Source of the DNA: Meira nashicola
Lineage: Eukaryota > Basidiomycota > Exobasidiomycetes > Exobasidiales > Brachybasidiaceae
Length of the DNA: 64,000 nucleotides
Reading direction: 5' to 3'
Assembly (NCBI GenBank): GCA_001600355.1
Contig: BCJU01000003.1
Span: 186,001-250,000, forward strand
The notes beneath the pieces were generated by a model. It was not told where the DNA came from. It searched no databases and saw nothing but the letters and a program-made list of their open reading frames with translations. Of the stretch, positions 30,986 to 49,126 are shown piece by piece (position 1 is the first letter of the stretch; every line of letters begins with the position of its first letter). A program made the position numbers and the translations under genes.

Positions 30986-32590
30986 ATGTCGCTCGTCAAC
31001 AAAAGTTTGGATTTGTCTTTGGAGGAACGTATACAGGACAGGCCGTTGCAAGAAAGAATGGGTGAACTGTCATTATCTAGATGGATAACATATACAGAAA
31101 TGACTTCTAAATATGTCTCTCTTAAAGGTAAAACTGTTTTTAATAAAAATACAGAAGTCCCATATATATTTCTAGTCAAAGGGAAATTAAAAGGATCATT
31201 TTATAGGGAAGCAAGATCAGCCAAATCTCCTTGTTCGATTTGCTCAAGGCTTAATAAAACAAGACCTTTTGATTCTCCAAGGATTGAATGCATTATTGCG
31301 GATTCGTTTGATTGTTGTGCAACTTGCTTATGTTTAGATATTCCTTGTGAAAAGTGTAATTGGAAATCAAAATTGCAAAATATGCCTCCTTATATCAAAC
31401 GAATTAAAGAACTGGCAGCTAAATCACCTCCACGTTATTGTTCAAACACAAGACCATCATCAAAAAGAAGTTTGGAAGAAGAAGAAGAAGGAGGACTACA
31501 AATTAAAGGTATAGGAAATTTATCAAGCTCTACTAGCCCCCCATTACGTCCTCCTGATCCTAGGAAAAGGCAAAAAAGTGTACATGCTGAAGATACAGAG
31601 GAAATAAGTCAAACGGATACTATTACTCCGGCAGAAGAAGCTATAAACAAACCTGTGATCCATCCAAGTACACAAGACGTGATAATGTTGGAAGAGAACG
31701 TTCAAGGAGACGATAAACTCGAAGAAGAATTGGTTAAGGATAAAGTAGAACCGATTGACGAGATATATATAAGAAGCAAGCTTTTATCGGAATTGAAATG
31801 TGTTCTTAAACGAAAAGAAGAAGAAAAAAGAGATTTTTTGGCAAACGAAGAAGAAGCGCTTTCTATAAACGAAGAGGAAGCAGAACAGTTGTTAGCCAAG
31901 GAAGAGGAAATGAGAACCATATGTGATGAGTTGATAAACGGAAGAGAAGAATTAAAAGAAGGTTTTGAAGAGAAAATAGTGATATTGGAATCTAAGATTA
32001 AAGGCTACGAGAAGAAATTAACAAAACAAAAGACAACTATTAAAGATAAGGAAGAAACAATAAAGAGAGGAAAAAATGGAACTGAAGAGTTACACAAAAA
32101 TATCAATGGTCTAAAAGAAGAACTTATTCGGGAAAGGAGAAGTTATAAAGAACGTCTTAAAGAGAAGCAAAATGAATGTGAATTGGAAAAACAACAAAAA
32201 GAAAATAATGAAAAAACCATAAAAGAGTTACACAAAACGATTGATCAGATGGAATTTGATCAAGCAATTCAATTTACTAAGGTTCAAAATCAAATTTCGT
32301 CTTTACAAGAAGCCAAGATGTACTACGAAAACAATGCAAAGTCAAAGATCGAAAAGTGCGAAGAACAGATGAGACAAAGAGATTCGATAATAAAGGAACT
32401 CCTATTAAAAGTTGAACAAAAAGAGAAAGAGAACGAAGAAATGGGAAAAGAGCGAAATAAATGCAAAGAAGAATTAATTATAGAAAAGAATAAAAATCGA
32501 GATATACAATCAGAATTAATTACAGAAAAGAATAAAAATCAAGATATACAATCAAAATTTGAAAGTTTACGGAAAATAATGTTTGATTAA
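30986..32590 (+). CDS. Cys6/coiled-coil array protein 1
   Basis: A 534-residue founder-type member of the local family. The N-terminal module (about 30-80) precedes the cysteine motif: Cys83, Cys86, invariant-type Asn90, Cys102, Cys110/111, Cys114, Cys121, with an extra Cys116 and Cys124. A basic patch RKRQK at about 192-196 is a probable nuclear signal. The linker is acidic. From about 250 to the end the protein is an almost uninterrupted Lys/Glu-rich coiled coil, ending in two near-identical 14-residue repeats (nucleotides 32471-32554). The coding sequence is markedly A-rich. I know no named family matching it. Zinc binding and dimerisation are inferences from the cysteine spacing and heptads. 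Confidence 0.8.
   Translation: MSLVNKSLDLSLEERIQDRPLQERMGELSLSRWITYTEMTSKYVSLKGKTVFNKNTEVPYIFLVKGKLKGSFYREARSAKSPCSICSRLNKTRPFDSPRIECIIADSFDCCATCLCLDIPCEKCNWKSKLQNMPPYIKRIKELAAKSPPRYCSNTRPSSKRSLEEEEEGGLQIKGIGNLSSSTSPPLRPPDPRKRQKSVHAEDTEEISQTDTITPAEEAINKPVIHPSTQDVIMLEENVQGDDKLEEELVKDKVEPIDEIYIRSKLLSELKCVLKRKEEEKRDFLANEEEALSINEEEAEQLLAKEEEMRTICDELINGREELKEGFEEKIVILESKIKGYEKKLTKQKTTIKDKEETIKRGKNGTEELHKNINGLKEELIRERRSYKERLKEKQNECELEKQQKENNEKTIKELHKTIDQMEFDQAIQFTKVQNQISSLQEAKMYYENNAKSKIEKCEEQMRQRDSIIKELLLKVEQKEKENEEMGKERNKCKEELIIEKNKNRDIQSELITEKNKNQDIQSKFESLRKIMFD
32471..32554 (+). repeat. 42-nt tandem duplication in array protein 1
   Basis: Two adjacent in-frame copies (32471-32512 and 32513-32554) differing at only a couple of bases, encoding EKNKNRDIQSE-like units. 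They lengthen the coiled coil by 14 residues, that is two heptads, so the register is kept. Confidence 0.9.
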
Positions 32591-33093
32591 GGAAATTGTA
32601 ATATATTCAAAAATGAATGTCAAGATTTTGTAGTTCTATGTACACATATGTACTTTTACTCTATACACACCGAAAGATAAAATTGATAAAATGATCTCCC
32701 TGGCCAAAAGCCGGGGAAGATATATATACTTTGCTTGCTTGCATTGAACCAAACAAATTAATCAATACGATTAATATATTTGTGGCGTCACAATTCGATA
32801 TGCAGGAACGGACGCCTTTGTGTACACATTCTGCTGTGGCTTAAATTAAGTTTCCTTTTGTTTTCAAATGTTTTAGATAAACGTCTTTTATTCCTTTGTT
32901 GTTTTTATCATAAATCTTTCATCATGAGGCTGTTCCTTTTGTTCTCATGCTCAATTCATATATGTTCATCATCGAGATCTATAAAAGGTAAGGATTGATT
33001 CTTTAAAATAAAAATCATCGTTCCCCAAACGTTCTTTTCTCTATTGCTACTCTACTTAATACTTTTACCTCAAACAAGATCTATATCGACAAA
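32591..33093. promoter_or_regulatory. Promoter region of array member 2
   Basis: A 503-bp AT-rich spacer. TATAAAAGGT starts at 32980, 114 bp before the ATG at 33094. A short open frame from 32923 looks like a signal peptide followed by a GTAAGG donor, but no acceptor puts it in frame with the gene. Confidence 0.4.
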
Positions 33094-34082
33094 ATGTCCA
33101 CCAACCCTAAATATTTTAAGCGAACAAACAATACGCCCAGAAAATTTGGTCAAATCGATTTTACTAGAACTACATATGTCAATGACAAGCTTAAACTTTA
33201 TTTTCGATTTCCTTTTTGGCCCAAAGATCCTTTTCAAAAGAGTGCATTTATTTCTTCAATTAAATGTGAACCTTGTATAGAAATAAATAAACAAAAACAT
33301 AAAAGTATAGAGAAAGATTTTCCTTGTATACTTTCAACTGATCCACAATTTATTGCATGCGCTTTTTGTTTAATAAGCGATAGAACAAGTCAATGTTTAA
33401 CTAAAAGACAGAGGGAAAGAGCTTTTATAGAGTATATGTCACAATCAGAGGTGGATAATTCACAGGTAGACGAAATCAAAGCACCTGTTGAAAAGAGCAA
33501 AGAAAGAGAAGAAGGTGAATGCAAGAAAGAGGAAGAGAAAAAGGAAGAGGTAGAGGCTGAAATGAAATCGTGCCATCCGAAAGTATCAAATAAGCGAAAA
33601 CGTCAAGCTGATTCGATCGATAAAAGTGAAAAGAAAGCTTGAGCCAAGATCAAGACGATGGAGAGAAACGCGTTAGATTCAACAAGGAAGAAGTGAATGA
33701 TTCTGACTGTTGTCGTACCGAAAATTTAATCAAAATCAAGTCAGAACACGTCGAATTAGAGACTGAGGCAGCAGAAGAGGGTGAATCAAGCCAGACAAAC
33801 GACCCACCAAATGAGCAAATTTGTGATCCAACTGTTGATCAAATAAAGGACAATGAGACATTCAACGGATTGATTAACTCGCCTCTCAAAGATTATAATC
33901 ACGCAATAGAAAATCACAAATTAAACAAAAAGCTAGAACGATGCGAAAATGAAAATCAAATCATGAGAGATTTGCTTCATCTTACTATACAAGACCTTGA
34001 AATTACAAAACTTAACCTTGAAATCGCGAATAGATCACTCAAAATTGCTAATTCTCATCTTCAAGTCATAGGATATCGATAG
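33094..34082 (+). CDS. Cys6/coiled-coil array protein 2, frame-disrupted
   Basis: Two overlapping open frames make up one family member. The 5' frame (33094-33642, 182 residues) has the N-terminal module, Cys58, Cys61, Asn65, Cys78, Cys89, Cys92, Cys101, an acidic EEGE linker and the basic KRKRQ patch at about 167-171, then stops. The next frame, offset by -1 and open from about 33630 to 34082, has no ATG of its own and continues with KRVRFN and a coiled-coil-like C-terminus (LERCENENQIMRDLL onwards). The KRVRFN...EVN stretch lines up with KTIRFD...EVN in array protein 3, so it was coding. A splice that repairs the frame would need the weak intron 33626-33690, which lacks a branch site and would remove that conserved stretch. 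Pseudogene, sequencing error or frameshifting are all possible. Confidence 0.65.
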
Positions 34083-34780
34083 TTTATCCGAGACTAAGAA
34101 TCGAGTAAATTCGAAAATATAGCTTAAGCGAATGACTCGCTTTGATTCCGTTGCTAAATCACATTAAAGTATGTCGTAAATTTTGAATTGTTTTTAAATT
34201 GGTCAAGATTAATATGCTATGGCGTCCCAGCACAGCCCAGCACATTTTAATTAATTTGCAGCTTTAAGCAAGGGTCGGAGTAAGTTTGCTTATCTTTCTT
34301 CATTTGGGACGGAATGGCCTTTTTAACAAGATGCAAATTGTCAGAATATTTTGGCATGTTGTTTTTTTTGATCCGTTAAAAAAAAGTAACGCGAAATAAA
34401 ATTGCTGAGTACACACTATCTACCGAAAAGTATTTAAAGGCGCCAATTCCAATTACCCGACAATCAATGCGTCGATCGTTCCTGGGAACCGGCTATTGAC
34501 TCAATTGCAAACTTTCGTATCCAACGCAGCACTTTTGATCAAATGTCACACTTTTGACCCTCTTAAAGAATACAAACACAAACAAAAATAATTAACGCAA
34601 AAGAAATCAATATACCTTAAGTATCAATATTAAATAAACATTAAAAAAAAAACACTTTTTATTGCCCCATTTGCACTGGTTTTGATCTCCATCCCTTTTA
34701 CCTTAACTCATTCGAAAATAGAAACTCAAGAGAAGGCATGGGTAAGAGAAGACAAAATCTCTGTTTTAGAAGAAATAAAG
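34083..34780. promoter_or_regulatory. Spacer and promoter of array member 3
   Basis: A 698-bp region, AT-rich with A tracts (34379-34386, 34643-34652). A possible intron acceptor (CTTAAC branch, AAAATAG ending at 34721) hints at a spliced 5' leader. A TATTTAAAGG sequence lies at 34431-34440. Confidence 0.4.
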
Positions 34781-36022
34781 ATGATACAACATGTCGAGTT
34801 TTTCACTTCACCACCGATGTATTGGGTAAACGCAAGTCTTTCTGTGCCTTTTAAGCTGAAGAGTTGGCCAGATCATTTCAAAAATGATGCTTTTCAATCA
34901 ACGATCATTTGTACACCTTGTAATCAATTCAACCGATTACAAATTCATGATACCCCTAAACTTATTTGTATTCTTTCTCCGGGTTTTAATGCATGTGCTT
35001 TTTGTATCATGCTGAATCGTCAAGATGAATGTCTCACGAAGAAGCAAATTTTACTTCAAACAAAATCAAGAGCCCTTCAAGCTGTTCAAACAGGATCAAA
35101 GTCAGCATTTGACAATGAGGAAAAAGAAGAAGGTGAATGCGAAGATGACGCTGTCAAGAATTCTCGTGTCGTTACCAGTGGCGAAAAGCGTTATCATTCA
35201 GAACCCGGTCGTGTCGTTACCAGTGGCGAAAAGCGTCATCATTCAGAACCCGGTCGTGTCGTTACAAGTGGCGAAAAGCGTCAATCAGAATCCGATCTTG
35301 ACAAATATACAATGTCCAAACAAAAAATCAATCCTGCTCTTAAAGTTGGCAAGACAATTCGCTTTGATGATGGTTCTATGGTACCTGTTTCGGAGAGAGA
35401 AATCGACGAAAAAGAAGTCAACAAACAAGTGCTTGATGGTCAACAATCTTCTCAAAAGAAAGATCTTGAAATAAAAAATTTGCAAGAAGGGCGTGAAATC
35501 AATGACAATCCAAAAAACAACCAAATCGAAACAGTAAAAGCGACGAATGAAGTAGACTTGGAGAAAACGTTTGTTTGCTTTGACTGTGACATTTTGGAGG
35601 AGAAGAATGAAGACCTCCAAAAAGAGAATTTGAGATTGAAAGATGAATTGGAAGAGGTCAAGAAAGAAGAAATGAAGAAAGAGCATGATTTGCAAAGGAA
35701 CAAGAAGGAGAATAACGTGTTGAAGTCCAAGCTAAAAGAAATGGAAACGGAGAAAGCAATTATGGAGAACAGATTGGAGATAAAGAAAAAAGAGATGATC
35801 ATGTTACAGGATCATATTGAAGAATACAAAAAGGAGAAGGAAGCATTAGAGGGGGGATTGAAAGAGAATGTGGAAAAGCTTGAAAAGATGAAAATCAAAT
35901 TGGAAGAGCGTAAAAGAAAAGCAGATGAACTTTTCTCTTCAACTTTGCGAAGTCTTCAAGCCGCAGAGAAGGCCATCAATAATGCAAAGTCGCAAATCGA
36001 TGATTTTCACAAAATTCAATAG
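34781..36022 (+). CDS. Cys6/coiled-coil array protein 3
   Basis: A 413-residue family member starting at the first ATG in frame; the frame is open upstream to 34682 without an ATG, so a 5' exon could exist. The N-terminal module is short. Cysteines are at 44, 47, 63, 72, 75 and 84, with Asn51. An acidic EEGE linker is followed by three tandem 15-residue units (RVVTSGEKRYHSEPG type, nucleotides 35165-35295), each contributing a GEKR basic patch. Then comes a KTIRFD segment shared with array protein 2. A second Cys pair (CFDCD) lies at about 266-269. From about 270 to 413 a Lys/Glu-rich coiled coil dominates. Function unknown; the architecture suggests a dimeric nuclear protein. Confidence 0.78.
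   Translation: MIQHVEFFTSPPMYWVNASLSVPFKLKSWPDHFKNDAFQSTIICTPCNQFNRLQIHDTPKLICILSPGFNACAFCIMLNRQDECLTKKQILLQTKSRALQAVQTGSKSAFDNEEKEEGECEDDAVKNSRVVTSGEKRYHSEPGRVVTSGEKRHHSEPGRVVTSGEKRQSESDLDKYTMSKQKINPALKVGKTIRFDDGSMVPVSEREIDEKEVNKQVLDGQQSSQKKDLEIKNLQEGREINDNPKNNQIETVKATNEVDLEKTFVCFDCDILEEKNEDLQKENLRLKDELEEVKKEEMKKEHDLQRNKKENNVLKSKLKEMETEKAIMENRLEIKKKEMIMLQDHIEEYKKEKEALEGGLKENVEKLEKMKIKLEERKRKADELFSSTLRSLQAAEKAINNAKSQIDDFHKIQ
35165..35295 (+). repeat. 45-nt tandem repeat in array protein 3
   Basis: Copies at 35165-35209 and 35210-35254 are almost identical, and a third, diverged copy runs from 35255. Each encodes 15 residues with a basic GEKR and a Ser/Glu part. Near identity at the DNA level points to recent duplication. 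Confidence 0.92.
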
Positions 36023-36381
36023 GCAAGAAAGCACCTGATTTGAACGATTGTCGATGGTGGTTTTTAATGGTAGTTTGCGTACAATAATTGTAGACTATAT
36101 GTGTTGAAATTTTTATTCAATTTCTCATTCCATGTCTGTCTCTACTCGCGCAGTGCCGCTTGCGCTTGCGCCGATGCACGAAATGACTTGTCCCTTTGCA
36201 TCGACAACCCATTCGAGCACTGATTGCACATTTGCGTTTGGGCCATTAATTTCCTAATCACGTTCAGTCACAAAGAGAAAGAACAAAGAGCCTTTCTTTT
36301 CTTTCCTCCTCCCTTTGTTCATCCATCCAAAAAAAAAAAATCCCATTGTTCTTCATTCAAACATCTTTTTGAACGTAAATT
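36023..36381. promoter_or_regulatory. Spacer between array members 3 and 4
   Basis: A 359-bp spacer with a degenerate GC-rich cluster (36147-36172) related to the recurring intergenic word, then pyrimidine-rich leader sequence before the ATG at 36382. Confidence 0.4.
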
Positions 36382-37701
36382 ATGTCACATACGCCTACAC
36401 AAAGGCCTGCTGCACCTCAGCATAGTCTCGATCCGAACTATGAGGCAACTAGGCCACAATATGGGGAATCATTGTATAAATGGGCCACGACGGACTACTT
36501 CGACATGAATCAGGCATCATATCCCAATCCAATGACACTTATTACTTGTGAATTAAAAGTGAAACCTAAAACAGAAAAATTCATGCTCACATGTAAAGTA
36601 GCTGATCAAGGCTGCCTACAATGTGCTCAAATTAATCAGACAAGACATCCTGGTCAACCAAAAATTCCTTGCTTAGTTAGTGGCGTTGATAGCCGATGCG
36701 CTCTCTGCATTGTTACCAAAAAACCAAAATCCAGTTGTCAAAGTCAATTGCCAGCCAGTTATCCCTGGCCTCAAAATGCATGGCGCCGTTCTCATCCACC
36801 AGTGATCCCCCTTGCACAACCAAACAGAACTGTTCCAAAACGATCAAGCTCGCCATCTTGGACGCTTGACTTGACTGGTAATGCAGTTCCGCGCAAGCAA
36901 GTTGAAATTTATAAAGAAAACGTACCTCGTCGCTCTGAAAGTCCAGTTCGACAAGCTCGATATTACAATCAAGAAGCCCCAAAAGGAGATTCTGCAATGT
37001 TGGCTCAACGAAAAAGACGTCAGTCAATTTCCGGAATTGACGTCTCTGAGAGCGAGAAACGACACACTTACGAACGTGCATCGACAATTCAAACCGGGCC
37101 TCATGGTGATGATGAAGACTTGAGAGAGGTAGAAAAACGCAATCGTGATTGTCAACAAAGTACATCTATGCCAGTGGCTACAAATTCTACAGTACAATCA
37201 TCTCCGCAAAAAGATATGGATACCGATATGACTCCACCGGCAGGAAACGATGATGCAAATAACAACACTCCGTCTCGCTTGGTTACAGACGACGTGTCTC
37301 ATCATCCAGCGTCACCAAGTTCCTCTCATACATTATCAGCGGGAAAGACATCTATCGGTTCGAATGACTCAAGAAATGACACATCTCCGGAAAGTCTTGC
37401 TCAGACAAACGATAAAGCTTCTCTTCACGCTCAATTCTTTGATAAATTCCTTGGTGATTATAGAAAGAACGAAGAGAAAAACAAAAAGCTAGAGAATATG
37501 GTACGAGAGGAGAAAGAGAAGAGCAAAAATCTTCAAGCTGAAATTGATTTATTACGATTAGAGCTTCAGCGCGCACAAGAAAATATTCAAAGTACTGCTG
37601 TACTGAGAATCGAAAATCAGCGCTTACAAGACAAAATTAATAAGTCGAACAAGAGCTTTGCGATACTCAAGGCTCGAATTACAGAGTGTTTAGGGCAATA
37701 A
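36382..37701 (+). CDS. Cys6/coiled-coil array protein 4
   Basis: A 439-residue family member. The N-terminal module begins around YKWATTDYFDMNQ (32-44). Cysteines at 78, 81, 97, 106, 109 and 119 follow the family spacing (2, 15, 8, 2, 9), with Asn85. A Pro/Ser/Asn-rich linker contains the basic patch RKRRQS at about 209-214. A negatively charged, Thr/Ser-rich stretch follows. A coiled coil occupies about 345-435, with NKKLENMVREEKEKSKNL and leucine-spaced heptads. Compared with members 1-3 its codon use is less A-rich. Single exon, clear ATG. Function unknown. Confidence 0.82.
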   Translation: MSHTPTQRPAAPQHSLDPNYEATRPQYGESLYKWATTDYFDMNQASYPNPMTLITCELKVKPKTEKFMLTCKVADQGCLQCAQINQTRHPGQPKIPCLVSGVDSRCALCIVTKKPKSSCQSQLPASYPWPQNAWRRSHPPVIPLAQPNRTVPKRSSSPSWTLDLTGNAVPRKQVEIYKENVPRRSESPVRQARYYNQEAPKGDSAMLAQRKRRQSISGIDVSESEKRHTYERASTIQTGPHGDDEDLREVEKRNRDCQQSTSMPVATNSTVQSSPQKDMDTDMTPPAGNDDANNNTPSRLVTDDVSHHPASPSSSHTLSAGKTSIGSNDSRNDTSPESLAQTNDKASLHAQFFDKFLGDYRKNEEKNKKLENMVREEKEKSKNLQAEIDLLRLELQRAQENIQSTAVLRIENQRLQDKINKSNKSFAILKARITECLGQ

Positions 37702-38388
37702 GAAACTAACGTCATCATCAAGCTTCGCTCTTCTTAAGATCAATTAACCAAAATTTCATTATCAATCATTCTCAACTTTCTCAGAAAAAAATCATTATGT
37801 GTTATTTATTCTGTTTTGTTCATTATGTTGATTTTTGTATGTTATACATTATCCATTGTTCACTATGTAAATATCATATTTGGATCTTTTGGATAGCGAA
37901 CTGCGTACTCGATTTTTCGGGATCGAGATGAAATTGGCTAGTGATCACATTCATCCATCAATCAACTAATCAATCCAATACTTTAGCAAGTCTTTCAATG
38001 CAACGTGTTATTCGCGTGCGTGTGCTGCGCAGCGCCGCGCTGCGTATCAGCCTGGTAAGGTTGCATGCATACAAAGCGTGCATTTAACGCGGAGTCTTGG
38101 TTGCCGCGTGTGAGATATTCTTTATGCACAACTCAAAAAATATCGGCCCTTTGTTCTTTTGAAATGAGAATCCGATGACAACACTGGTAAAGTGCCTCAC
38201 TTTGACATAAAGTGCAGACATTCTTCTTCTTCTTCAAATGTTCTTTTTGGGGGCGTTCTTGCCCCGCTGAGCCCATGTTCTCCTTCATTAAATCTCTTTT
38301 GACTTAACGAATCTTGATTTTTTTCTCCTCTTTGCTTCTTCCAACCATCACCAACACAATTTATTGCATTGCTTATTTATGAACCGTG
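37702..38388. promoter_or_regulatory. Spacer between array members 4 and 5
   Basis: A 687-bp spacer. It contains the longest version of the recurring GC-rich word (38026-38044, TGCGCAGCGCCGCGCTGCG), which forms an imperfect inverted repeat. Otherwise AT-rich, no gene. Confidence 0.45.
38026..38044. repeat. Recurring intergenic GC-rich word, inverted-repeat form
   Basis: TGCGCAGCGCCGCGCTGCG, an imperfect inverted repeat able to form a short hairpin, between array members 4 and 5. Confidence 0.6.
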
Positions 38389-40023
38389 ATGACTGGTACA
38401 CCACCCATGCCTGCGGGTGGAAGATTTCCAGATGAAGATGAAGAACCGCAAGTGCTTCATGATTCATCATCAAAAGGCGAAAGCAATTTACGCCATCAAG
38501 ATCATAGCCGTTCAACAGATCCACGAAGAGAAAGAGGTCGATCTCGGGCTCGAAGCTTAAGTCGAAGATCTAGTCATCGGGAAGAACGCAATTCATCACC
38601 ACAATCCAATAGTCGATATAGCAAGCACATTCTTTATGAAGAAGCAAAAAGACTCTTTAATATGAATGATATTTGGCGTATGAAAGATGGAACAAAATTA
38701 TGGTGCCGGCCAACGTTTTCACTTCCAGATCAATTTCATTGGGACGATGTTAATTTGGCAAAATTTCCATGCAAAAGGTGTGAGAAAATTAATTCCACAA
38801 AACCAAAAGAAGATCTACCTATACCTTGTTTGATATTAACAAGGCTTGAGCGATGTCTTTTATGCTTTCATGAGAAGATGAGACATGAACAATGCTGTGC
38901 ACGCGAAGTAAATGAACAAAGATACAAAAACGATCAACGTTTTTCTGGACACTCCTCACGCTCTTGGAATCGATATGATCAATCCTACTATGGGTACAAT
39001 CAAGACTATGACTATGGTTACGATAGACGAGCAAATCAAGATCATTTTCATCCTCCAACTTCAAGCCGTAATTATCATTCTCGCGAAGAGCACGACCGAG
39101 ATCGAGGAAGGCGTCTAGAACGATCAAATAGGGCGAATAGAAGCCCAAGCCGTCGTCCGTCTGTTGCCCGTAGTATGAGGGATAGGTCCGCTTCCATCGA
39201 GCGTTCAAATAGATGTGACAGAGGCCGTAGCCGTCGTCCATGTGCAAGAGAAAGGTCCGCTTCGATTGAGCGCTCAGAAAGAAGAGACAAGAGACTCAGA
39301 CTTCATTCAAATCTTGCACAAAGTACTAGAGGGAGTCCTGCTCCCATTGAGCGCTCAAATGGGAGGAACAGAAGTCATAGTCGTCGTCCATCTCTTGCTC
39401 TTAGTAGAAGGGAAAGATCCGTATCAATCTCTCAGGACACAGTCAAAGCTATCGTTTCACCAAGAGTGGGAAAAAGTCAAAACGCAAGAGTTGATTCACC
39501 TCCAACTATTACTGCGCAGAATGGTACAAGCCGTCCTGAAAATGATACTGAAATGAATATTGAAGAAGGTCACCAAAGTCGTCTCCATGCCAGACAAGTT
39601 GATGCGATCTCTCTTTACACTTCTTCTCCTACGCTAAGCCCAGCGGTAGATCCAATACAAGCAGCCAATGTTCGAATTAATGAATTGAAAAGCAAAATTT
39701 CATTGTTAACCAAGGAAAGTGCTAGACAAGTATTAGAGATACAAGAGCTGCGACAAAAGAATGATAGATCGGAAAAGCTACTGAAAGAGTCGGACCAAGA
39801 ATACAGCCAAATAGCGAAAAAGAATGATGGATTGGAAGATCTATTGAAAGATTTGAATCAAAAGTACAGCGAATTGGCGAAAAAGAGCTTTGAAATGGAA
39901 AGAGAGCTAAAACAATTCAAACAGAACAAAATCAAATTGACTCACCTTCAACAAACATTGAGCGATTTGTCTGGCATCATACATAAAAGTGAGCAACGAC
40001 AGTGTCAATCACATAGCAATTAG
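38389..40023 (+). CDS. Cys6/coiled-coil array protein 5, Arg/Ser-rich
   Basis: A 544-residue member. It opens with GGRFPDEDEEPQVL, closely matching array protein 6. An Arg/Ser-rich stretch (about 40-70) precedes the N-terminal module (YEEAKRLFNMND at about 83-94). Cysteines are at 128, 131, 147, 156, 159 and 169/170, with Asn135. The linker carries Tyr/Gly and then Arg/Ser-rich imperfect repeats at about 240-345 (RSASIERSNR-type units), reminiscent of SR proteins. The C-terminal coiled coil at about 425-535 includes two 21-residue near repeats (EKLLKESDQEYSQIAKK and its sister). The RS repeats may mediate phosphorylation-dependent contacts; that is inference. Start at the ATG 38389. Confidence 0.82.
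   Translation: MTGTPPMPAGGRFPDEDEEPQVLHDSSSKGESNLRHQDHSRSTDPRRERGRSRARSLSRRSSHREERNSSPQSNSRYSKHILYEEAKRLFNMNDIWRMKDGTKLWCRPTFSLPDQFHWDDVNLAKFPCKRCEKINSTKPKEDLPIPCLILTRLERCLLCFHEKMRHEQCCAREVNEQRYKNDQRFSGHSSRSWNRYDQSYYGYNQDYDYGYDRRANQDHFHPPTSSRNYHSREEHDRDRGRRLERSNRANRSPSRRPSVARSMRDRSASIERSNRCDRGRSRRPCARERSASIERSERRDKRLRLHSNLAQSTRGSPAPIERSNGRNRSHSRRPSLALSRRERSVSISQDTVKAIVSPRVGKSQNARVDSPPTITAQNGTSRPENDTEMNIEEGHQSRLHARQVDAISLYTSSPTLSPAVDPIQAANVRINELKSKISLLTKESARQVLEIQELRQKNDRSEKLLKESDQEYSQIAKKNDGLEDLLKDLNQKYSELAKKSFEMERELKQFKQNKIKLTHLQQTLSDLSGIIHKSEQRQCQSHSN
39100..39430 (+). repeat. Imperfect Arg/Ser-rich tandem repeats in array protein 5
   Basis: Several copies of a unit of about 30 residues, each carrying an ERSNR-like core followed by SRRPS and R-ERS. 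The DNA copies are diverged but alignable, indicating internal duplication. Confidence 0.65.
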
Positions 40024-40330: not shown

Positions 40331-41704
40331 ATGGCATTCGACCTTTCATTGCCACCTATACCACCAAATGGGTTCCCAGATGAAGATGAAGATCCAATCA
40401 TTCTCTCTGATGATATGCAATCAGTGCAAGGATCCGTTGAAGTGAGCATTCCACAAAGAAATGAATCAAAAGCACACACTTCAGAGCGCGCAAATGAACA
40501 AAGGCCTTTACATGAACGACTTTCAACTACCCGAAATGATGGGTGTTCGACAGCTTACGAGCGAGCGGCTGCAAAATACGATTTCAAAGAACGCTTCCAA
40601 GCTAACGAGTATGTTTCAATTCCTGGAAAACCTCTATTTCTTCCACGCAACAGAAGATTTTCTTGGGATGAGGTCAGATACGCTGAAAATCCGTGTATAA
40701 GCTGTACAAGAATCAATGAGAGTAGGCCAAAAGAAGCTCCTCTCCTACCTTGTTTAGCGTCAACACGCTTTGATCGTTGCGTTTTTTGCGTCTGTACGAA
40801 TCCAAGTGGCTTTTGTTCCGTTGGTAACGAACTTCGTGCGAGTAAAGACGTATCTCGAATGCAATATCCACAAACAGCTCATCCATATATGCAACAGTGG
40901 CAATCGCAGCTTTGGGAAAATGATTCACCATACGCTGATTCATCATACGCGGGACACTCATACAGAGCCGCTTACGATCGTGCTTCGTCATCCTACAACA
41001 ACAGTACCAGGAGATCTTCTGAGTACGATCGCGGAGATATTCGCTACTACGATTCAGTAGACAGCCGTAAGCGCAAGAGAAGGAGCAGTAGCAGAGATAC
41101 AACAAGTGTCAGCATTCAACCATCTAACATCCAACCATCTACTATTCAACCATCTATTATTCAACCATCTACAAAAACAACAGCTATCGATCGCCAAACG
41201 AATCATGTCACAGATAGTGCAGCTGTTGATGCACTCTTTCCAAACGTCAATAATGAGGTTATTGAAACAATTAACAGCGACGCTGATACAACTTTGGATG
41301 AAGCTCATGCGCAATCACACGTAAAAGACAACTCAAAAGCAAGAGGATCATTTTCTACCGTTGCTTCAACGCCACCGCTAGACCTTTCCAATGAAGACGA
41401 AATATCGTGCATGCTAAATCAGATTGATGGATGGACGAGAGGTAAAGAAGAATTGAAAGATAAAATTCATCAATTTCAAGAAAAGTACAGTCGAAAAGAG
41501 AGCGAAACGGAGAAATTAGAAAAGGAAAATGAACGATTATCACAATCAGCAGATAAATGGAAAGACTTATACAAGAAAGAAAAGTTAAAAAATGAAGAAT
41601 TAGAAGAACAAATAAAGACAATACAGTCGAGAAACGGGAGTGAAAAGTTGGAAAAACTTAAAAATGATGTCCGTGCCGCTTTCGACCAATATGAGCTTGC
41701 GTGA
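40331..41704 (+). CDS. Cys6/coiled-coil array protein 6
   Basis: A 457-residue member. Its first 26 residues (PPNGFPDEDEDPIIL) match array protein 5, so the two look like a recent tandem pair. The N-terminal module is at about 76-118 (YERAAAKYDF...). Cysteines at 122, 125, 141, 150, 153 and 162, with extra Cys155 and Asn129, give spacing 2, 15, 8, 2, 8. A Tyr/Ser/Ala-rich linker leads to the basic patch RKRKRRSSS at about 245-253. Four IQPS tetrapeptide repeats follow (nucleotides 41113-41169). A coiled coil at about 355-450 ends the protein (EEQIKTIQSRNGSEKLEKL). Single exon, ATG at 40331. Confidence 0.82.
   Translation: MAFDLSLPPIPPNGFPDEDEDPIILSDDMQSVQGSVEVSIPQRNESKAHTSERANEQRPLHERLSTTRNDGCSTAYERAAAKYDFKERFQANEYVSIPGKPLFLPRNRRFSWDEVRYAENPCISCTRINESRPKEAPLLPCLASTRFDRCVFCVCTNPSGFCSVGNELRASKDVSRMQYPQTAHPYMQQWQSQLWENDSPYADSSYAGHSYRAAYDRASSSYNNSTRRSSEYDRGDIRYYDSVDSRKRKRRSSSRDTTSVSIQPSNIQPSTIQPSIIQPSTKTTAIDRQTNHVTDSAAVDALFPNVNNEVIETINSDADTTLDEAHAQSHVKDNSKARGSFSTVASTPPLDLSNEDEISCMLNQIDGWTRGKEELKDKIHQFQEKYSRKESETEKLEKENERLSQSADKWKDLYKKEKLKNEELEEQIKTIQSRNGSEKLEKLKNDVRAAFDQYELA
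41113..41169 (+). repeat. Short IQPS-encoding tandem repeat in array protein 6
   Basis: Four to five units of about 15 nt, reading ATTCAACCATCTA-like, encode IQPS plus one variable residue. Likely length-variable. Confidence 0.85.
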
Positions 41705-42008: not shown

Positions 42009-42671
42009 ATGAAAAAAGTCTTTAGCTGGCCTTATTATTCTAAGAATAATGGAAGGGCTACTTCCGAACAAAGTGAGAGCAAGGCAATCTTTTCATCGCC
42101 ACCGCCACATTCAGACGGAGCATTGAACCTTCACATTTCTCCTAATTTATTTGCTCAATTTTGCAATGAAGAGCCACAACCATCTGAAATGGAGACAGAT
42201 GAACGAGAAGATAGTCAAGTCTGTTGTATTGATAGATTATTTCAAAATACAAGAGAGAATGAAGTTACTAATGGTGATAGCTTGGAAGAAGGCGAAATCC
42301 GAGAGATAAAAAAAGAAAAAGAAGAAGAAGAATATGTGATGAGCGAGGAGGATTCAGCTATTCTCGAACAAGCATTTTTTGAAGAATTTTCAAAGGCAGG
42401 TACTCCTTTCAATGTTAATTTTACAAGTACGACACCAGAAGTCCAAAGCATCAAGCGAAAACGTGAGGAAAGTGAACCAGACTCATTGCGTTTGAGACAA
42501 TGGATTACCGATATCGGACAGGAAACAATACCAAATACTACACCGGAAGATGTCGAAGGCCTCAAGAAGCGCATTAAAGAACTGGAAGCTGAAAATGTTC
42601 GGTTGCAGAAACAGGTAAAACACTTCAAACGTCACATTGTTGGTGTTTGTAGCTCTTTGTTAGCATATTGA
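42009..42671 (+). CDS. Short array-related protein lacking the cysteine domain
   Basis: A 220-residue open frame in the array, same orientation. It has no C-x2-C...C-x2-C motif and no N-terminal module, but keeps downstream family features: an acidic SLEEGEIREIKKEKEEE linker (compare EEGE in members 2 and 3), a basic KRKREESE patch at about 149-156, and a short C-terminal coiled coil (LKKRIKELEAENVRLQKQV). It is either a truncated derivative or a coiled-coil-only partner. If expressed it could pair with full members without contributing the cysteine domain; this is speculative. ATG at 42009. Confidence 0.62.
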   Translation: MKKVFSWPYYSKNNGRATSEQSESKAIFSSPPPHSDGALNLHISPNLFAQFCNEEPQPSEMETDEREDSQVCCIDRLFQNTRENEVTNGDSLEEGEIREIKKEKEEEEYVMSEEDSAILEQAFFEEFSKAGTPFNVNFTSTTPEVQSIKRKREESEPDSLRLRQWITDIGQETIPNTTPEDVEGLKKRIKELEAENVRLQKQVKHFKRHIVGVCSSLLAY

Positions 42672-42973
42672 AGGCAGTGAATAATTTGTAGACCTAAAAT
42701 GTAAATGTAATTGTACCATGATCTGATAATGATTCTGTGTAAGCTATTCCATTAAAAGCGTCGAGAAGTCTTGATTGCAATCTGAAGTTGCTGGCAACGC
42801 TTGTCTGAGTGCCGCGAATGTAGGGAAGCTTCGGACAAAGAAAAGACAGTGCAAGCGCTTGTTGGATTGCGCCAAATGCGTTCATTAAATCATTCTTCCC
42901 CAGAATCAGAGATTACGTTTTGACTCACCATCATGCAATGGTTTATTTGAGACAGACAGATTAAACGTTCACA
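42672..42973. promoter_or_regulatory. Spacer upstream of array member 7
   Basis: A 302-bp spacer with no gene; presumed promoter and 5' leader of member 7. Confidence 0.35.
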
Positions 42974-44200
42974 ATGTCCTTGAATAAAGAGAAAGGATTG
43001 TACGAGATTGCTCTTCAATACATCAACTTTGATCAACCTACAAAACTTCCTTATGGAAGAAAGAGCTTACCATTCACACTTCAATATCAACAATGTGGAA
43101 CAAATGTCGCTGTAAGAATGGATGCATTCATCAAAGAGGCAAAAATCAGCAAAAAGCCATGTGACCATTGCATAAGAGTTAATGAACAAAAACCTAAAAA
43201 TGCAAAAGCAATCCCTTGCGTTCGAAGTGATGTGATCGGATTCAATCAATGCGCTCTTTGTATCATGTTAAGAAACTCATTCAAAACATGTAAACTTGCG
43301 CATGAAGATGAACATGAATCAGATCAGCTTTCAAGTTCGCCAGCTAGAGGATGGGATGATGATGATGAAAATTATGATGACAGCTTGACAGCAGAACAAT
43401 CTGACAGAACAAGCAAGGCTGCTACCTCGCAAAAAAATCAAGAAAGCGCTGGAACTTTATATCCCATTCAACAGACCGCAGACACTATGAATGTCAATTT
43501 CCCATTCATGGATGAGGACGAATTTCCGATTGTCATTGATGAGGACCACATAAACAAAGCAGAAGTGTCGAGGTACAATTTTTCTCAAAAGCGTCCACGA
43601 CCATCATCAAGAGGTAATCCTATCGATGTACCTAAAGCTGGAGCATATGATTTTGGCCGAAACGATGCAGACCTTTTGAATCGCAACTTTTCCAACTGGG
43701 ACGATGATATTGAATTACCGCAAAGTAAGCAGTTCAGACGTGATTCGATCTATACACATTCTAGAGATGCTTCTAGGGAGCCTATGACGAGCATGACTGA
43801 TGCTGGTAGCAGCAGAGAGAGATCAGCATTACGAAGTGCAGAACGTCAAGCATCGAGCAGCAGAGTCTCCAAAGTTGTCGCCTTCGATGCATCCCCTACA
43901 AACATGGCAGAAAGTGTGATGGAAAGATTCGTCGGACAAGTGCAAGATGAAAAATTGCAGAACCGATTAAAACAAGAAAAGGAAAAGGTGGTGGAATTAA
44001 ACAAAAAGATAGCCGAGCTGAAAACAAAACAACACGCAGAATTGTGTAAGCTCAAAGAAGAGAACAACCTTTTGAAAAGAAGAGTGGAATCTGATTCGAA
44101 AATTCAAAAACTTCAGCACGAAAGAGCGCATAAATCAGAAAAAGAAGCGCAAGAATTACGATGGGAACTACGACAACTGCGGGAAATGAAAGATGATTAA
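42974..44200 (+). CDS. Cys6/coiled-coil array protein 7
   Basis: A 408-residue member and the last of the plus-strand series. The N-terminal module is at the very start (YEIALQYINFDQPTKLPYG), so the usual disordered leader is missing. Cysteines are at 63, 66, 82, 93, 96 and 106 (spacing 2, 15, 10, 2, 9) with Asn70. An acidic, Ser-rich linker is followed by a basic QKRPRP patch at about 205-210. A coiled coil covers about 320-405 (LKQEKEKVVELNKKIAELK and later heptads). It ends only 56 bp before the convergent BST1 stop. Single exon. Confidence 0.82.
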   Translation: MSLNKEKGLYEIALQYINFDQPTKLPYGRKSLPFTLQYQQCGTNVAVRMDAFIKEAKISKKPCDHCIRVNEQKPKNAKAIPCVRSDVIGFNQCALCIMLRNSFKTCKLAHEDEHESDQLSSSPARGWDDDDENYDDSLTAEQSDRTSKAATSQKNQESAGTLYPIQQTADTMNVNFPFMDEDEFPIVIDEDHINKAEVSRYNFSQKRPRPSSRGNPIDVPKAGAYDFGRNDADLLNRNFSNWDDDIELPQSKQFRRDSIYTHSRDASREPMTSMTDAGSSRERSALRSAERQASSSRVSKVVAFDASPTNMAESVMERFVGQVQDEKLQNRLKQEKEKVVELNKKIAELKTKQHAELCKLKEENNLLKRRVESDSKIQKLQHERAHKSEKEAQELRWELRQLREMKDD

Positions 44201-44256
44201 AGCTGCAAATCTCAAGCATGTATTCTAGTAGTAGTACAAAATGTGACAGTATGATG

Positions 44257-47200
44257 TTAAGATGCTTGTCCACTTATGTTACCCAATAGCTTCCGCTCCT
44301 TGCGTATCGCTTGCTCTAGCTGAAGGAGCTTGAATTTTGTATTGATCAAGCCTCCTGTCTCGTCATCTTGACCAACTAAGAGCTTAAGTAGGGTATTGAA
44401 TTGAGCTTGTGCATTGCGTAATGTTTGAGGTGGTAAAGCAGAATATTGATACAGTGGATCATACGGTGCGGCTGGCTTTTTCTTCTCTACTTTCTCGTCC
44501 TCTTTTGATTTATTGTCCACTACCTTTGATACCTCCTCCATCTTGCCCTTGCGCCTTCTCAATGTTGTAGACTCTTTCTCAGTCACGACATCGTTCTCTC
44601 CTGCTGTGTCACCTAATTCTTCTTTTTCAATGTAGTTCTTTTTTGACAGATGTACCCTCCCTTCATTTATTTCGACACCAATGCTTGCCTTCATGCGTGC
44701 ATCCCAATTTCGGGTCAAATGAGGCGAACCAAGCTGCATGCGTGCTTTGCTCAACTGGAATAATCCTCGTGCAACAGCATCAGAAGACGAATTTTGCGCT
44801 TTCAAATATTCATCAAGTGTAGACAAATACTCTTTTAACAATCCGTCCAATAAATTGCTCTTGCCATGAGCATTGTCCTTTTTGTCCTCATAGGATTCGA
44901 CTTCATATCCTGGCACACCTTCATTGGTCATGAGGGAGGCTTGCAAACTTGGTGGCAATGCGCTTTCACCTTCATTGAGGATAGATTCCGGTAATGTTGA
45001 ATGGTGTATGGCATGTTGATCATCTTCTGCATCAAAGAGGCTCTTTTGCTCTTCCTTGTTTTCTTCTTCTTCCGACTGGATGGGAGCCTGTTTCAACCTT
45101 TCGTAAAAGGTGGTAGCTGCCAAACAGAGAAACGCAACATTAGTCGCACCGAAAAGGTCTGAAGTATATCGTATGCCATATAAAACACCCAGCATTGCAC
45201 CTCTAAAGAACAGGGCTGCAACGAGGAAACTTGCCGCCTTAGATCGTATACGTGAAAAACCTTCGGCTGACATGGAAATGTAGTTGACAAGGATGAAACC
45301 CGAAATCTTCAACACATTATGATCTGATTTGCCCAAAGTTCCATACCATCCATTCCACAAATTGCGAGTCCAGATCAACAACACAGGTGCATTGAGAGGC
45401 AAAAGCCAAAAGAAGATGTTCAAGAAAAGAACTTGTTGATTTGCCATTGCTGTTGAATGCTCTTTCCTTCTCTCATCACTACGAGAGTCGGCTACTGACA
45501 CTTTGACTGTGTTGATGAGTTGTATGAGGAATAGGACCAAAAAGACAAACTGGATTGGCAAGAAGAAGAAAATAGCTAAAGCAAAAATCAAAAACAAAAC
45601 CACTCCTTTAGCAAGATCTTTCCGAGTCGCTGGTCCCTGGCTTGTAGTTTGTTCTGATCTCAAGATTCTTTTGCCCAAGAAGGACAGGGACTTGACTAGC
45701 ACATTGAGAAACGCTGCAATGAGGACCACAACACCATAGGCCGTAGGAATGAAAAGAATGGCCAAGAAAATGCTGTGCAAGATTGGTGAAGCGGGTATGC
45801 CAAAGTTGAGATTGGTGAAAAGGGTATAATCGTCTACGCCAAAACGTAAAAATGCAATCCTCTGCAAAACTGAAGCAGCAAATGAAAGTAGCAGCAGCAA
45901 CGGCAGAATAAATGGGAGATGCATAGACATAGCACTTGTTGTGGTCGCAAAAGGAGCGCCATGATCCCATTGCTCATAAACAATCGATGACAGCAACAGC
46001 ACGATGGACAATGGAAGTGCAACAATGCTCGTACGATAGCGAGACAAGATCAATCCAGCACTTGTCTTCCAGTCAACACTGATCCTTATTGCGTCAATCT
46101 CCTTACAATGATTTAACATCATGTTGAACTTCATCCCTCGTTTTTGACCTTGCGATGTTGGCATGAACGGGGAAGTACCATGCAGCATCAACTTCAATTT
46201 CTCTCCAGAATTGACGGCTGGGTACCATTGTTGGTCACCTGTCGACAAGCTCTCTACGTGTAACATTGGCGCCTCTTTCGCCCAATCTTTGCAGCTTTGA
46301 AACTTATTCTGTGTTGGTAAAAGCTCCAATGTATAGGCGAGTAAGGTAGAATCCATATCACGTACAATATTTACCGTCGATGGCTGTTTATGTGCTCCAC
46401 GAATAAGGATGTTCCTGTTTGACAAATGTTCATGGGCGGATGCTGGATCCTGTGCAAAGACGAAACCACAATCTGAGCTCCCTTCTCTGTGATATTCATC
46501 GACCAAGATGCTTGCTGTTGAGTGTCGTATCAAATCTTCTTTTGTTATTGTGAGAAAGTGAAACCCATTTTCCGGCAGCTCATATCGTTTTTCAGAAATG
46601 GGAAAAGTTGGAAATTTGTCGTTATTTGACATTCTATCCTCACTTCTTGATGGTGGGATAAGATCGTAAGCAGATGGCAACACCCATCGACACCTTTCGT
46701 TCGTATCGCAAAGAGCAACTCTTATCTTGGCTTCTTGATCTATAGGCGGACCAAAGCTCTTGTCCAACCCTACTGGATGTCTTGTGAGTAATTCGAAACC
46801 AGTGATCTCCCTCTCAGGAATTTTGTACGATTCGCTTTGCACATTCTGCCTTGCTTCGCGATCAGCAACAAGTTCAGATATCCGGAAAGAGACTTTCTCA
46901 AGTGGCAAGGTAGAATGCTGCAAGTCTTGGCTCCTAGCAATTCCCAACATACGTCTCCATGCTTCTCTTCTCTCGTTCAAATTGCTGTTTCCTCCCTCGA
47001 TTCGCAAAACCCCACGAGCAACTCTTTCACGTAATTGATCACACCACATCATAGCCAAGTGATCTACACCACTCCAAAGAGCAGCAAGGCCAGATGTAAA
47101 GGCGGACAAGGATGCTTCAAGCTTCCATATACGTGCCAAACGAAGGGAAGATGCTTCGGATGATAGCTGATCGTCCAAGATACCTCCACTCAAAGAGACT

Positions 47201-47985
47201 AGCAGAATGTTATTTGATGCGTCGCCAGCCGCCTTCTCTATCTCTTGATAGATTTCTTCCAGGCCTGTCTCCATGGGAACAGGTGGGTAGGCATGCGGAC
47301 TAGATAGCGTTATGATTGTCTCCACACTTCCTTGTTTGTAGTTCTCTTGTAATGTCATCAATCGTGCTACGATTCCTCCCATACTATGCGCTAGAATTGG
47401 AACCTTTGTCGAATTTGTGTAGATTTTGGATTGTAGAAAAGAGATCACATCATTCAAGTAAACTGCCTGTTCTCGCATCGTTTCGCCATGGAAAGCTGAA
47501 AAGTCTTCATTAAAATCTACAGTCCACCAATCAACTTCACCTTTGTTGTTGTCTATTCCTTCACCGCGTTCATACAAATGATGTGAACTGCTGGCAACAC
47601 TACGTACTTGACCATAGCTACCAGCATTTCCAGGCACAAACAGAGCCGGTCTACCTGTGGGAGGTGAAGGTGTCGATCCGGGCGGAGCTTCGCGATAGAG
47701 GAAAAGTTTGTATTTGGCATCTAAACCAACAGGTGAAGGAGCATGATAGCGCATATATGATGGCCACATGCGAGACATTCGACATCTTTGCTGTAAATGT
47801 AGATTTTTTGGAAGATTGATGAATGATACCGCAAGTTGCAAAAGCACTATGAGTGTAAACAGAATCACAACTCCAATGCTAACGATATTGAATGAAAGAA
47901 GACCTTCATTTTTCTGTCCATTGGATCCTGGCCGTAGGTGCCTTCTTTGTTTTAGAGAAGCCCATCGCAAAAGACGTTGCCACAT
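44257..47985 (-). CDS. BST1: GPI inositol-deacylase Bst1/PGAP1
   Basis: A 1242-residue endoplasmic reticulum membrane enzyme that removes the inositol acyl chain of GPI anchors, allowing export and quality control of GPI proteins. An N-terminal membrane segment (about 32-55) precedes a luminal lipase domain with ALFVPGNAGSYGQVRS, the nucleophile motif LAHSMGGIVAR (Ser201) and SSPHAYPP. The middle is a beta-rich luminal region (to about 660). A series of hydrophobic helices (about 665-970) follows, and then a long hydrophilic cytosolic-like tail with acidic and Lys-rich stretches (about 985-1242), which is longer than in many fungal relatives. The first ATG is 47985. It splits the paralogue array from its eighth, inverted member. 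Confidence 0.93.
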   Translation of the reverse strand: MWQRLLRWASLKQRRHLRPGSNGQKNEGLLSFNIVSIGVVILFTLIVLLQLAVSFINLPKNLHLQQRCRMSRMWPSYMRYHAPSPVGLDAKYKLFLYREAPPGSTPSPPTGRPALFVPGNAGSYGQVRSVASSSHHLYERGEGIDNNKGEVDWWTVDFNEDFSAFHGETMREQAVYLNDVISFLQSKIYTNSTKVPILAHSMGGIVARLMTLQENYKQGSVETIITLSSPHAYPPVPMETGLEEIYQEIEKAAGDASNNILLVSLSGGILDDQLSSEASSLRLARIWKLEASLSAFTSGLAALWSGVDHLAMMWCDQLRERVARGVLRIEGGNSNLNERREAWRRMLGIARSQDLQHSTLPLEKVSFRISELVADREARQNVQSESYKIPEREITGFELLTRHPVGLDKSFGPPIDQEAKIRVALCDTNERCRWVLPSAYDLIPPSRSEDRMSNNDKFPTFPISEKRYELPENGFHFLTITKEDLIRHSTASILVDEYHREGSSDCGFVFAQDPASAHEHLSNRNILIRGAHKQPSTVNIVRDMDSTLLAYTLELLPTQNKFQSCKDWAKEAPMLHVESLSTGDQQWYPAVNSGEKLKLMLHGTSPFMPTSQGQKRGMKFNMMLNHCKEIDAIRISVDWKTSAGLILSRYRTSIVALPLSIVLLLSSIVYEQWDHGAPFATTTSAMSMHLPFILPLLLLLSFAASVLQRIAFLRFGVDDYTLFTNLNFGIPASPILHSIFLAILFIPTAYGVVVLIAAFLNVLVKSLSFLGKRILRSEQTTSQGPATRKDLAKGVVLFLIFALAIFFFLPIQFVFLVLFLIQLINTVKVSVADSRSDERRKEHSTAMANQQVLFLNIFFWLLPLNAPVLLIWTRNLWNGWYGTLGKSDHNVLKISGFILVNYISMSAEGFSRIRSKAASFLVAALFFRGAMLGVLYGIRYTSDLFGATNVAFLCLAATTFYERLKQAPIQSEEEENKEEQKSLFDAEDDQHAIHHSTLPESILNEGESALPPSLQASLMTNEGVPGYEVESYEDKKDNAHGKSNLLDGLLKEYLSTLDEYLKAQNSSSDAVARGLFQLSKARMQLGSPHLTRNWDARMKASIGVEINEGRVHLSKKNYIEKEELGDTAGENDVVTEKESTTLRRRKGKMEEVSKVVDNKSKEDEKVEKKKPAAPYDPLYQYSALPPQTLRNAQAQFNTLLKLLVGQDDETGGLINTKFKLLQLEQAIRKERKLLGNISGQAS

Positions 47986-48129
47986 TACTGTGAGACCATA
48001 AGCGATCGCTACGACATAAAGGGACAGAAACAAACGTTTGTAATGATAATCAAGAATGTTGAAGAAAAAATTGAGTTATTGGCTTGTGCGGGCGCCAACT
48101 TCTATCATTTTAGCGTTGTCTAGAAGCAA

Positions 48130-48139
48130 GCGCTGCGCG
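48130..48139. repeat. Recurring intergenic GC-rich word
   Basis: GCGCTGCGCG, the reverse complement form, between BST1 and array protein 8. Confidence 0.55.
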
Positions 48140-48250
48140 TATTATTGGCACAAACATCTTCCTCTTTGCTCATCATATTATCAGCTACATGCTACAAAGG
48201 CAAATTGCCATTTCTAATGCTCATGATACACAATATCTCAAACAGTGACC

Positions 48251-49126
48251 TCAAACGTTCTTTGTACACCTCTTTATATTTCGCAAAGCCTTTTCAAGCT
48301 CATATATGCGCTTCCTTGTCGACCTATCTTTGGCCTTGTATATTTCAAGTTCTTTACGTAAATTTGCCACAGAATCTCCATCACTAACTTTTCTACGCTT
48401 CAAGGAAACAATCATTTCATCTTTTTTTTCAATTGAATGCTCTAAATCTTTAATTTTTGCAGTCATATTCTCTTTTTGCTCGTACTTTTCGCGTTCTATT
48501 TGTCGTATCTGTTGAAATGCTCTGTCTAAATGATTGACACACGAGCAACATGAGCATTTTTCACAATGTTGATCAATTTCATCACGATCTCTTACCCTTT
48601 CATCTTTTCGACGTTTTGCAGAAAACGAGGATGTATCCAGTACTGGCTCCATTTTTCGTTCTTTTCCTTTCCTCTTCTTGGTATTTTTTGCTATCGGTTC
48701 AGGAGAAGAAGAGACATGCCGAAATGTAGATACTGGATCTTTCCGCCTAGGTCTAGGTTTAGGTCGAGTACTTGATTCACCTTGCTTCGGTTGGAGTTGG
48801 GGATCTTTGTTAGTCCTGACAGCCTTATTTACGCTACAATCTGCTGGGGTCTTGTCCAACATAAAACATAAAAGACAACGTTCAAAATCTTTGCTGATAA
48901 GACAAACTTTTGGACAACTCTCATCTTGATCAAAAAGGTTGATTTTTGAGCATAGAAGACAAGATTCGTTCGCTAATGAAGCTGTATCAAGAAACCGTCT
49001 TAATGAATTCTTTTTTGAATTAGAGAGCATGTCACTTTTAATCCTAAAATTAACTTTTAAGCCAGAAGTGAAAGTTGTCTGACTGTTTGTGTCGAAATAC
49101 TGTGAGATCTTGTCCAGCTCATCCAT
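48251..49126 (-). CDS. Cys6/coiled-coil array protein 8, inverted copy
   Basis: A 291-residue family member on the minus strand, beyond BST1. The first ATG in frame (49126) begins right at the family N-terminal module (MDELDKISQYFDTN); an upstream open stretch without ATG could be a 5' exon. Cysteines at 56, 59, 75, 84, 87 and 97, with an extra Cys71 and Asn63, give the family spacing 2, 15, 8, 2, 9. Two basic patches lie in the linker (TKKRKGKERK at about 149-158 and AKRRKDER near 170). Just before the coiled coil it has a second dense Cys/His group (HCEKCSCCSC at about 186-195) unique in the family. The coiled coil spans about 200-285. Function unknown. Confidence 0.78.
   Translation of the reverse strand: MDELDKISQYFDTNSQTTFTSGLKVNFRIKSDMLSNSKKNSLRRFLDTASLANESCLLCSKINLFDQDESCPKVCLISKDFERCLLCFMLDKTPADCSVNKAVRTNKDPQLQPKQGESSTRPKPRPRRKDPVSTFRHVSSSPEPIAKNTKKRKGKERKMEPVLDTSSFSAKRRKDERVRDRDEIDQHCEKCSCCSCVNHLDRAFQQIRQIEREKYEQKENMTAKIKDLEHSIEKKDEMIVSLKRRKVSDGDSVANLRKELEIYKAKDRSTRKRIYELEKALRNIKRCTKNV

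Follow-up and report, generated by a model that had tools for sequence, protein, structure and literature searches.

Proteins of the Zn2Cys6 family (PF00172), such as Gal4, Ppr1 and Hap1, carry six cysteines arranged in two CxxC...C halves, with a helix opening at each CxxC, and combine this cluster with a basic patch and a coiled coil in one protein. The cysteine spacing of the family is given as CX2CX6CX5-12CX2CX6-8C in one account (PMC5542705), and the description of PacX from Aspergillus nidulans (PMC4832277) reports a nuclear protein in which a zinc cluster that fits the consensus lies far from a long coiled coil, with homologues within Leotiomyceta. The spider GATA-like genes fuchi/GATAL (PMC9535882) are lineage-limited and partly tandem, with diverged zinc fingers of varied cysteine spacing; their domain is unrelated, they belong to animals and they serve as an analogy only. 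Here we describe an array of eight paralogous genes, m1 to m8, in a 64,000-nucleotide stretch of Meira nashicola DNA (the window; positions 186001-250000 of contig BCJU01000003.1, hereafter C3, in assembly GCA_001600355.1 of 17.88 Mb and 20 contigs), whose products share a six-cysteine domain that we found in no library searched. The explanation that we favour, and hold tentatively at a little short of an even chance, is that these are eight nuclear regulatory proteins that dimerise through coiled coils and carry a new six-cysteine module, forming a family that so far occupies a single locus.

The array comprises eight intact open reading frames (ORFs), seven head-to-tail on the plus strand and one inverted past the BST1 gene, all of which (8/8; 182-544 aa) run uninterrupted from ATG to stop, as the first-pass annotation of this DNA had placed them. 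The common six-cysteine motif that it had also proposed is borne out. The pattern C-x2-C-x(10-18)-C-x(5-12)-C-x2-C-x(4-9)-C occurs at exactly eight places in the six frames of the window, all of them in array members, and leave-one-out hidden Markov models (HMMs) built from seven domains recovered the eighth in 8/8 cases from a set of 1155 six-frame pieces (30 aa or longer), with E values from 8.2e-18 (m6) to 9.6e-13 (m1) and a best non-member at 0.087. The spacing found in all eight members is C-x2-C-x15/16-C-x8/10-C-x2-C-x8/9-C, with 16 residues between Cys2 and Cys3 in m2 alone and 10 between Cys3 and Cys4 in m2 and m7. Homology is confined to this N-terminal domain of about 100 residues, in which one Phe, the six Cys and one Asn are invariant. 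Domain identity to m7 is 18-25%, and even the closest pairs, m2-m3 and m5-m6, reach 43-45% over 47 to 79 aa (about 50 aa for m5-m6). Adding the metagenome protein P0005, a relative of m6 discussed below, leaves the six Cys conserved in 9/9 domains, with no conserved His.

Searches of sequence libraries placed this domain in no named family, as the first-pass annotation had supposed. Among whole members compared with Pfam, no family reached the cut-off and every listed stretch lay behind the cysteine domain, with none listed for m1 and m2 and a weak C2H2-type match in m3 at 262-285. When the eight domain pieces and P0005 were compared with Pfam and NCBIfam, no family matched more than one of the nine rows and the m6 piece matched none; the best single-row matches were to an ADIP coiled-coil family (1.9e-4) and a phage protein model (3.3e-4). 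The sole match of the domain profile among PDB sequences at E<=10 was the zinc-binding region of Emi2 (2rt9, E 0.046), while the m6 domain had no match there and the m5 domain had two weak matches to other kinds of protein. A literature search found no paper describing the family, but with no name to search by this is no proof that it is new to the literature. Genome queries with each of the eight members at E<=10 (m7 at full length, the others as domains) matched the array alone, a result based on the best candidates scored that a far-diverged copy may escape. The domain was not found in the libraries searched, and the family is real, old and found at a single locus.

An AlphaFold2 model of m6 residues 68-180, built on a nine-row alignment, has a mean pLDDT of 82.6 and a pTM of 0.73, with ten-residue pLDDT means of 81-93 over residues 11-90 that then fall to 76, 62 and 37. 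Its first 45 residues form one helix plus small strands, followed by a strand (48-50), C55, a helix (56-63) containing C58, then C74, a strand (75-77), C83, a helix (84-89) containing C86, then C95 and a last helix (97-109); the two CxxC helices begin directly after C1 and C4. The only full-length model, that of m8, has the same pattern (helices 57-65 and 85-89) and adds long C-terminal helices at 194-244 and 250-290, though both models derive from the same sequences and are not independent. The domain is predicted to fold compactly, with a short helix opening at each CxxC motif and small strands linking these helices. Queried with the m6 model, Foldseek matched nothing in the PDB at E<=10; it readily overlooks small domains, so the null match is no proof of a new fold. 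For the m8 model it returned 251 matches at E<=10 and none at E<=0.001, the best 50 of the 251 being mostly coiled-coil or helical proteins. The one match of the m6 model in a viral structure library was meaningless and was set aside.

The order of the cysteines raises the question of whether the proteins are far-diverged true Zn2Cys6 (Gal4-class) transcription factors, in which the module would bind DNA and dimerisation would have moved to the C-terminus. The array has the same CxxC-C-CxxC-C order and, in the models, the helix opening at each CxxC; the genome holds at least 119 PF00172 places (E<=0.001), none of them in the array, from which such genes could be drawn; and the basic patches and coiled coils described below fit. 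PacX (PMC4832277) indicates that a zinc cluster and a coiled coil can lie far apart in one protein, albeit in the opposite order. However, Cys2 and Cys3 are separated by 15-16 residues in 8/8 members, compared with 6 in the consensus (PMC5542705), Cys5 and Cys6 by 8-9, the cluster is preceded by some 45 residues that form an additional N-terminal subdomain, and the coiled coil lies at the far C-terminus. PF00172 itself was matched neither by the members (E<=1) nor by the domain pieces (E<=10). The basic charge of the class is also largely missing: relative to the 30 best-scoring of the 119 same-genome clusters, which are perhaps the most typical, our nine rows average a net charge of +1 (0-3) against +4.1 (3-5) in the seven residues after Cys2, where only m1 reaches 3, +0.1 against +3.5 over the ten that precede Cys1, and +2.3 against +8 over the core plus 10 residues on each side, the ten residues after Cys6 being alike (+1 vs +0.8). 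As a positive control, a same-genome zinc cluster found 17 PDB sequences from 1.6e-8, including Gal4 (1.6e-8), Ppr1, Hap1, Cep3 and Rsc3, whereas Gal4-class chains were absent from the matches of the array profile at E<=10. Profile-profile comparison with hhalign gave the 30 same-genome zinc clusters a probability of 4.6%, above IBR (0.3%) and PHD (0.4%), all insignificant.

Because there is no PF00172 match, the spacing differs, the hhalign probability is 4.6% and the charge is low, we do not file the domain as Zn2Cys6, and we regard it as rather unlikely that the proteins are true, far-diverged Gal4-class factors. The domain may nonetheless hold metal as a Zn2Cys6 cluster does, having two CxxC...C halves with a modelled helix opening at each CxxC. 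Zinc binding by the six cysteines is likely; they are kept in all nine domains even though m6 and P0005 differ at 29% of core positions. The domain itself probably makes no direct contact with DNA. Elsewhere in the genome, two related short frames, L080 and L081, lie near the end of contig C2 (~3.77 and 3.82 Mb), and each contains two zinc-cluster stretches in succession.

Beyond the domain, a basic patch resembling a nuclear localisation signal follows within 170 residues in seven of the eight members. With ORF d, a frame that lies between m6 and m7, included, the count is 8/9 compared with 3.5 expected and was reached by 2/1000 shuffles. Periodicity of the heptad type was strongest in m4, m7, m8 and ORF d, whose scores were reached by 0 or 1 of 60 shuffles. 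We make no claim of homology among the linkers and tails behind the domain: across the 28 member pairs, shuffles that preserve local composition gave z values of 3.2 (m1-m6) and 3.0 (m3-m4), and at most 1.9 otherwise. An acidic EEGE[CI] motif is common to m2 (33508-33522), m3 (35126-35140) and ORF d (42285-42299), and is reminiscent of the Ars2-binding EDGEI motif. A SUMO-interacting motif was also sought by pattern and found no support.

These features can be assembled into a model of how eight nuclear regulators might work. The six cysteines would hold two zinc ions in a Zn2Cys6-like cluster whose Cys2-Cys3 loop is long, the basic patch would take the protein into the nucleus, and the C-terminal coiled coil would form homo- or heterodimers, each of which would present two zinc modules to chromatin or to a protein partner. 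The module would be less likely to touch DNA directly in the manner of Gal4, since it lacks most of the basic charge for such contact. The copies would stem from old local duplication in which the module was kept while the dimerisation tails diverged or were exchanged. The bolder version of this proposal is of a new metal-binding domain, made of a small N-terminal subdomain and a six-cysteine cluster with a long first loop, perhaps restricted to a single fungal lineage. It would occupy one locus as eight proteins, most with coiled coils that might pair combinatorially, and would amount to a regulator network peculiar to that lineage, built in place by old tandem duplication; we consider this possible yet doubtful. 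If a zinc cluster did depart from the Gal4 mould here, a new class of regulator would have been built beside a large Zn2Cys6 family. Eight copies of one domain with dissimilar tails at one locus offer a compact test case in which a domain is kept as dimerisation tails change. In practice, genome annotation gains a new domain model.

Several observations weigh against the model of dimerising nuclear regulators. By the pattern used, m3 lacks a basic patch. The heptad signal is weak in m5, m3, m6 and m1 (2-6 of 60 shuffles reach the observed score), and m2, with the lowest score, has no clear coiled coil. The architecture that the first-pass annotation ascribed to the members stands for the domain in 8/8 and for the basic patch in 7/8; the coiled coil, which it gave to most of them, stands for m4, m7 and m8, is weak in m1, m3, m5 and m6, and is not clear in m2. 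Because the tails have no detectable homology, the coiled coils may have been acquired separately and serve different roles. The hhalign comparison with zinc clusters aligned only 10 columns, the last helix of the m6 model (97-109) is of low confidence, and the sixth cysteine is imperfectly aligned in the alignments used for modelling.

The age of the array bears on a further alternative, namely that selection diversified its members as genes of recognition or conflict, with a part in allorecognition, drive or defence. We searched a database of 5.8 billion proteins, in which a match requires shared 5-residue words; with candidates chosen in this way, the finding of no other relatives is a weak one, and related genomes are perhaps outside the database. 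A full-length profile, with the best 7981 candidates scored, found m1 of the window itself and a fern-named protein, P0002, while a profile started from m6 (7992 candidates) and a search with the m6 region (12 candidates) found one outside relative. This is P0005, a JGI metagenome protein from a 3086-base contig that matches m6 from end to end at 69% identity and equals it in length; scanning viral contigs with P0005 turned up no relative. P0002, named from Adiantum nelumboides, joins POP1 and part of m1. Its sequence is that of this fungus or one nearly identical to it, placed in a fern record under a gene model in which two genes are fused.

On a domain tree, m6 and P0005 are 0.36 changes per column apart on a stem of 1.17, compared with end branches of 1.3-4.5 for the other seven members; none of the 6 inner branches is well supported, and we rely on the pairs m2-m3, each the other's nearest sister (90/93), and m6-P0005 (84/95). 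The paralogs differ from one another far more than m6 from P0005, which indicates that the array is old and that its copies split long before that pair. Young conflict arrays usually contain recent copies and pseudogenes. Here, member-like remnants outside the ORFs (tblastn, E 0.05) were absent, beyond two alignments extending at most 30 bases past a start codon, and DNA likeness amounts to three short matches of 23-41 bases between members and one of 20 bases between spacers. Together with the eight open frames, these results show an array that is old and kept, and do not support the recent expansion or conflict that the first-pass annotation had raised.

What speaks for conflict genes is the tandem layout, the strong divergence, the single outside relative found, the short tandem repeats in 6/8 members with periods that are multiples of three, and the Cys core being less alike between m6 and P0005 (71%) than the 46 preceding residues (89%). 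That last contrast, however, represents 12 vs 5 changes in one pair, and the core value differs little from the 65-76% of most other parts of that pair; the stretches that reach 89-90% are those 46 residues and the first 30. With old copies, open frames, no remnants and m6 retained at full length in a relative, we judge this explanation to be quite unlikely.

Less probable still, and in our view very unlikely, is that the array encodes accessory proteins of ubiquitin-type pathways, with an IBR/ZBR-like zinc-binding module on a coiled-coil scaffold. The ground for it is the Emi2 (FBXO43) match mentioned above, in which C1, C2, C4, C5 and C6 are in register and C3 is one position off. The IBR/ZBR domain (PF01485) has eight ligands, seven Cys and one His. 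The array domains, with six invariant Cys and no conserved His, do not have this ligand set: a further Cys of 2rt9 between array C3 and C4, and the His of this domain type, have no counterpart. Profile-profile comparison lends no support (the 0.3% above was obtained with nine of eleven same-genome IBR places), no such match came from single-member queries, and there was no Foldseek match. Exported effectors of a plant-associated fungus are hardly plausible: effector genes are commonly clustered orphans whose products bear cysteines, and the sequence of the fungus also occurs in the fern-named record, but none of the eight members has a signal-peptide-like start as judged by hydropathy only (N-terminal hydropathy at most 1.11, compared with 2.47 in a neighbouring control ORF with a signal-like start), and the CxxC pairs with their spacing, the basic patches of nuclear type and the coiled-coil tails are against it.

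Coordinates of the array members and of the genes within and beside the array (window positions; C1-C6, first to sixth cysteine of the domain)
Feature	Position	Strand	Length	C1-C6	Remarks
m1	30986..32590	+	534 aa	31232-31357	Long K/E-rich coiled-coil-like C-terminal tail (heptad test weak)
m2	33094..33642	+	182 aa	33265-33396	Ends soon after a KRKR basic patch; lacks a clear coiled coil
m3	34781..36022	+	413 aa	34910-35032	Coiled-coil-like tail (heptad test weak)
m4	36382..37701	+	439 aa	36613-36738	RKRR patch; C-terminal coiled coil
m5	38389..40023	+	544 aa	38770-38895	RS/RE-rich linker; coiled-coil-like tail (heptad test weak)
m6	40331..41704	+	457 aa	40694-40816	RKRK patch; metagenome relative P0005
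ORF d	42009..42671	+	220 aa		Without Cys6 domain; basic patch, short leucine-zipper-like C-terminus
m7	42974..44200	+	408 aa	43160-43291	KRPR patch; C-terminal coiled coil
m8	48251..49126	-	291 aa	48836-48961	KKRK patch; inverted, beyond BST1
POP1 (RNase P/MRP subunit)	27740..30397	+			Flanking gene, by Pfam
BST1/PGAP1 GPI inositol-deacylase	44257..47985	-			Inside array, by Pfam

The array is bounded by POP1 and a NUP159/214-type gene at 49575, and the POP1 and BST1 assignments of the first-pass annotation were confirmed by Pfam. Spacers within the array measure 302-1138 bp, the ends of m7 and BST1 are only 56 bp apart, and GC content across the window is 32-47% in 2-kb rows. Compared with ten other ORFs of the window, and against a control in which synonymous codons were redrawn at the base frequencies of the spacers, codon usage gave the eight members z values of 2.6-6.0 and ORF d one of 3.8. 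The proposal that ORF d is a derivative of the array was not confirmed: it lacks the cysteine motif, gave no tblastn match to or from any member at E 0.05, and its best matches among eight comparisons, m5 and m3, were reached by 3/200 and 6/200 shuffles. No tRNA or Rfam match was found within the window. The array lies 217 kb into C3, at the start of which the telomere repeat array found in C2 is absent.

The short tandem repeats lie in m1 (32470-32559, period 42), m2 (33524-33549, 12), m3 (35164-35303, 45), m5 (39750-39886, 63), m6 (40921-40950, 15, and 41113-41172, 15/30) and m7 (43496-43546, 27). Outside the array, a 145-aa ORF on the plus strand (60527-60964) matches nothing in Pfam, shows no coding bias (z 0.5) and may be an exon or spurious. 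In the BST1/PGAP1 ORF, a Vma22/CCDC115 domain (PF21730, E 3.3e-14, residues 1050-1197) follows the transmembrane part; Vma22 goes unmentioned in the papers among the matches listed by our literature search, and the ORF is an apparent fusion of a GPI-deacylase to a V-ATPase assembly factor in one open frame.

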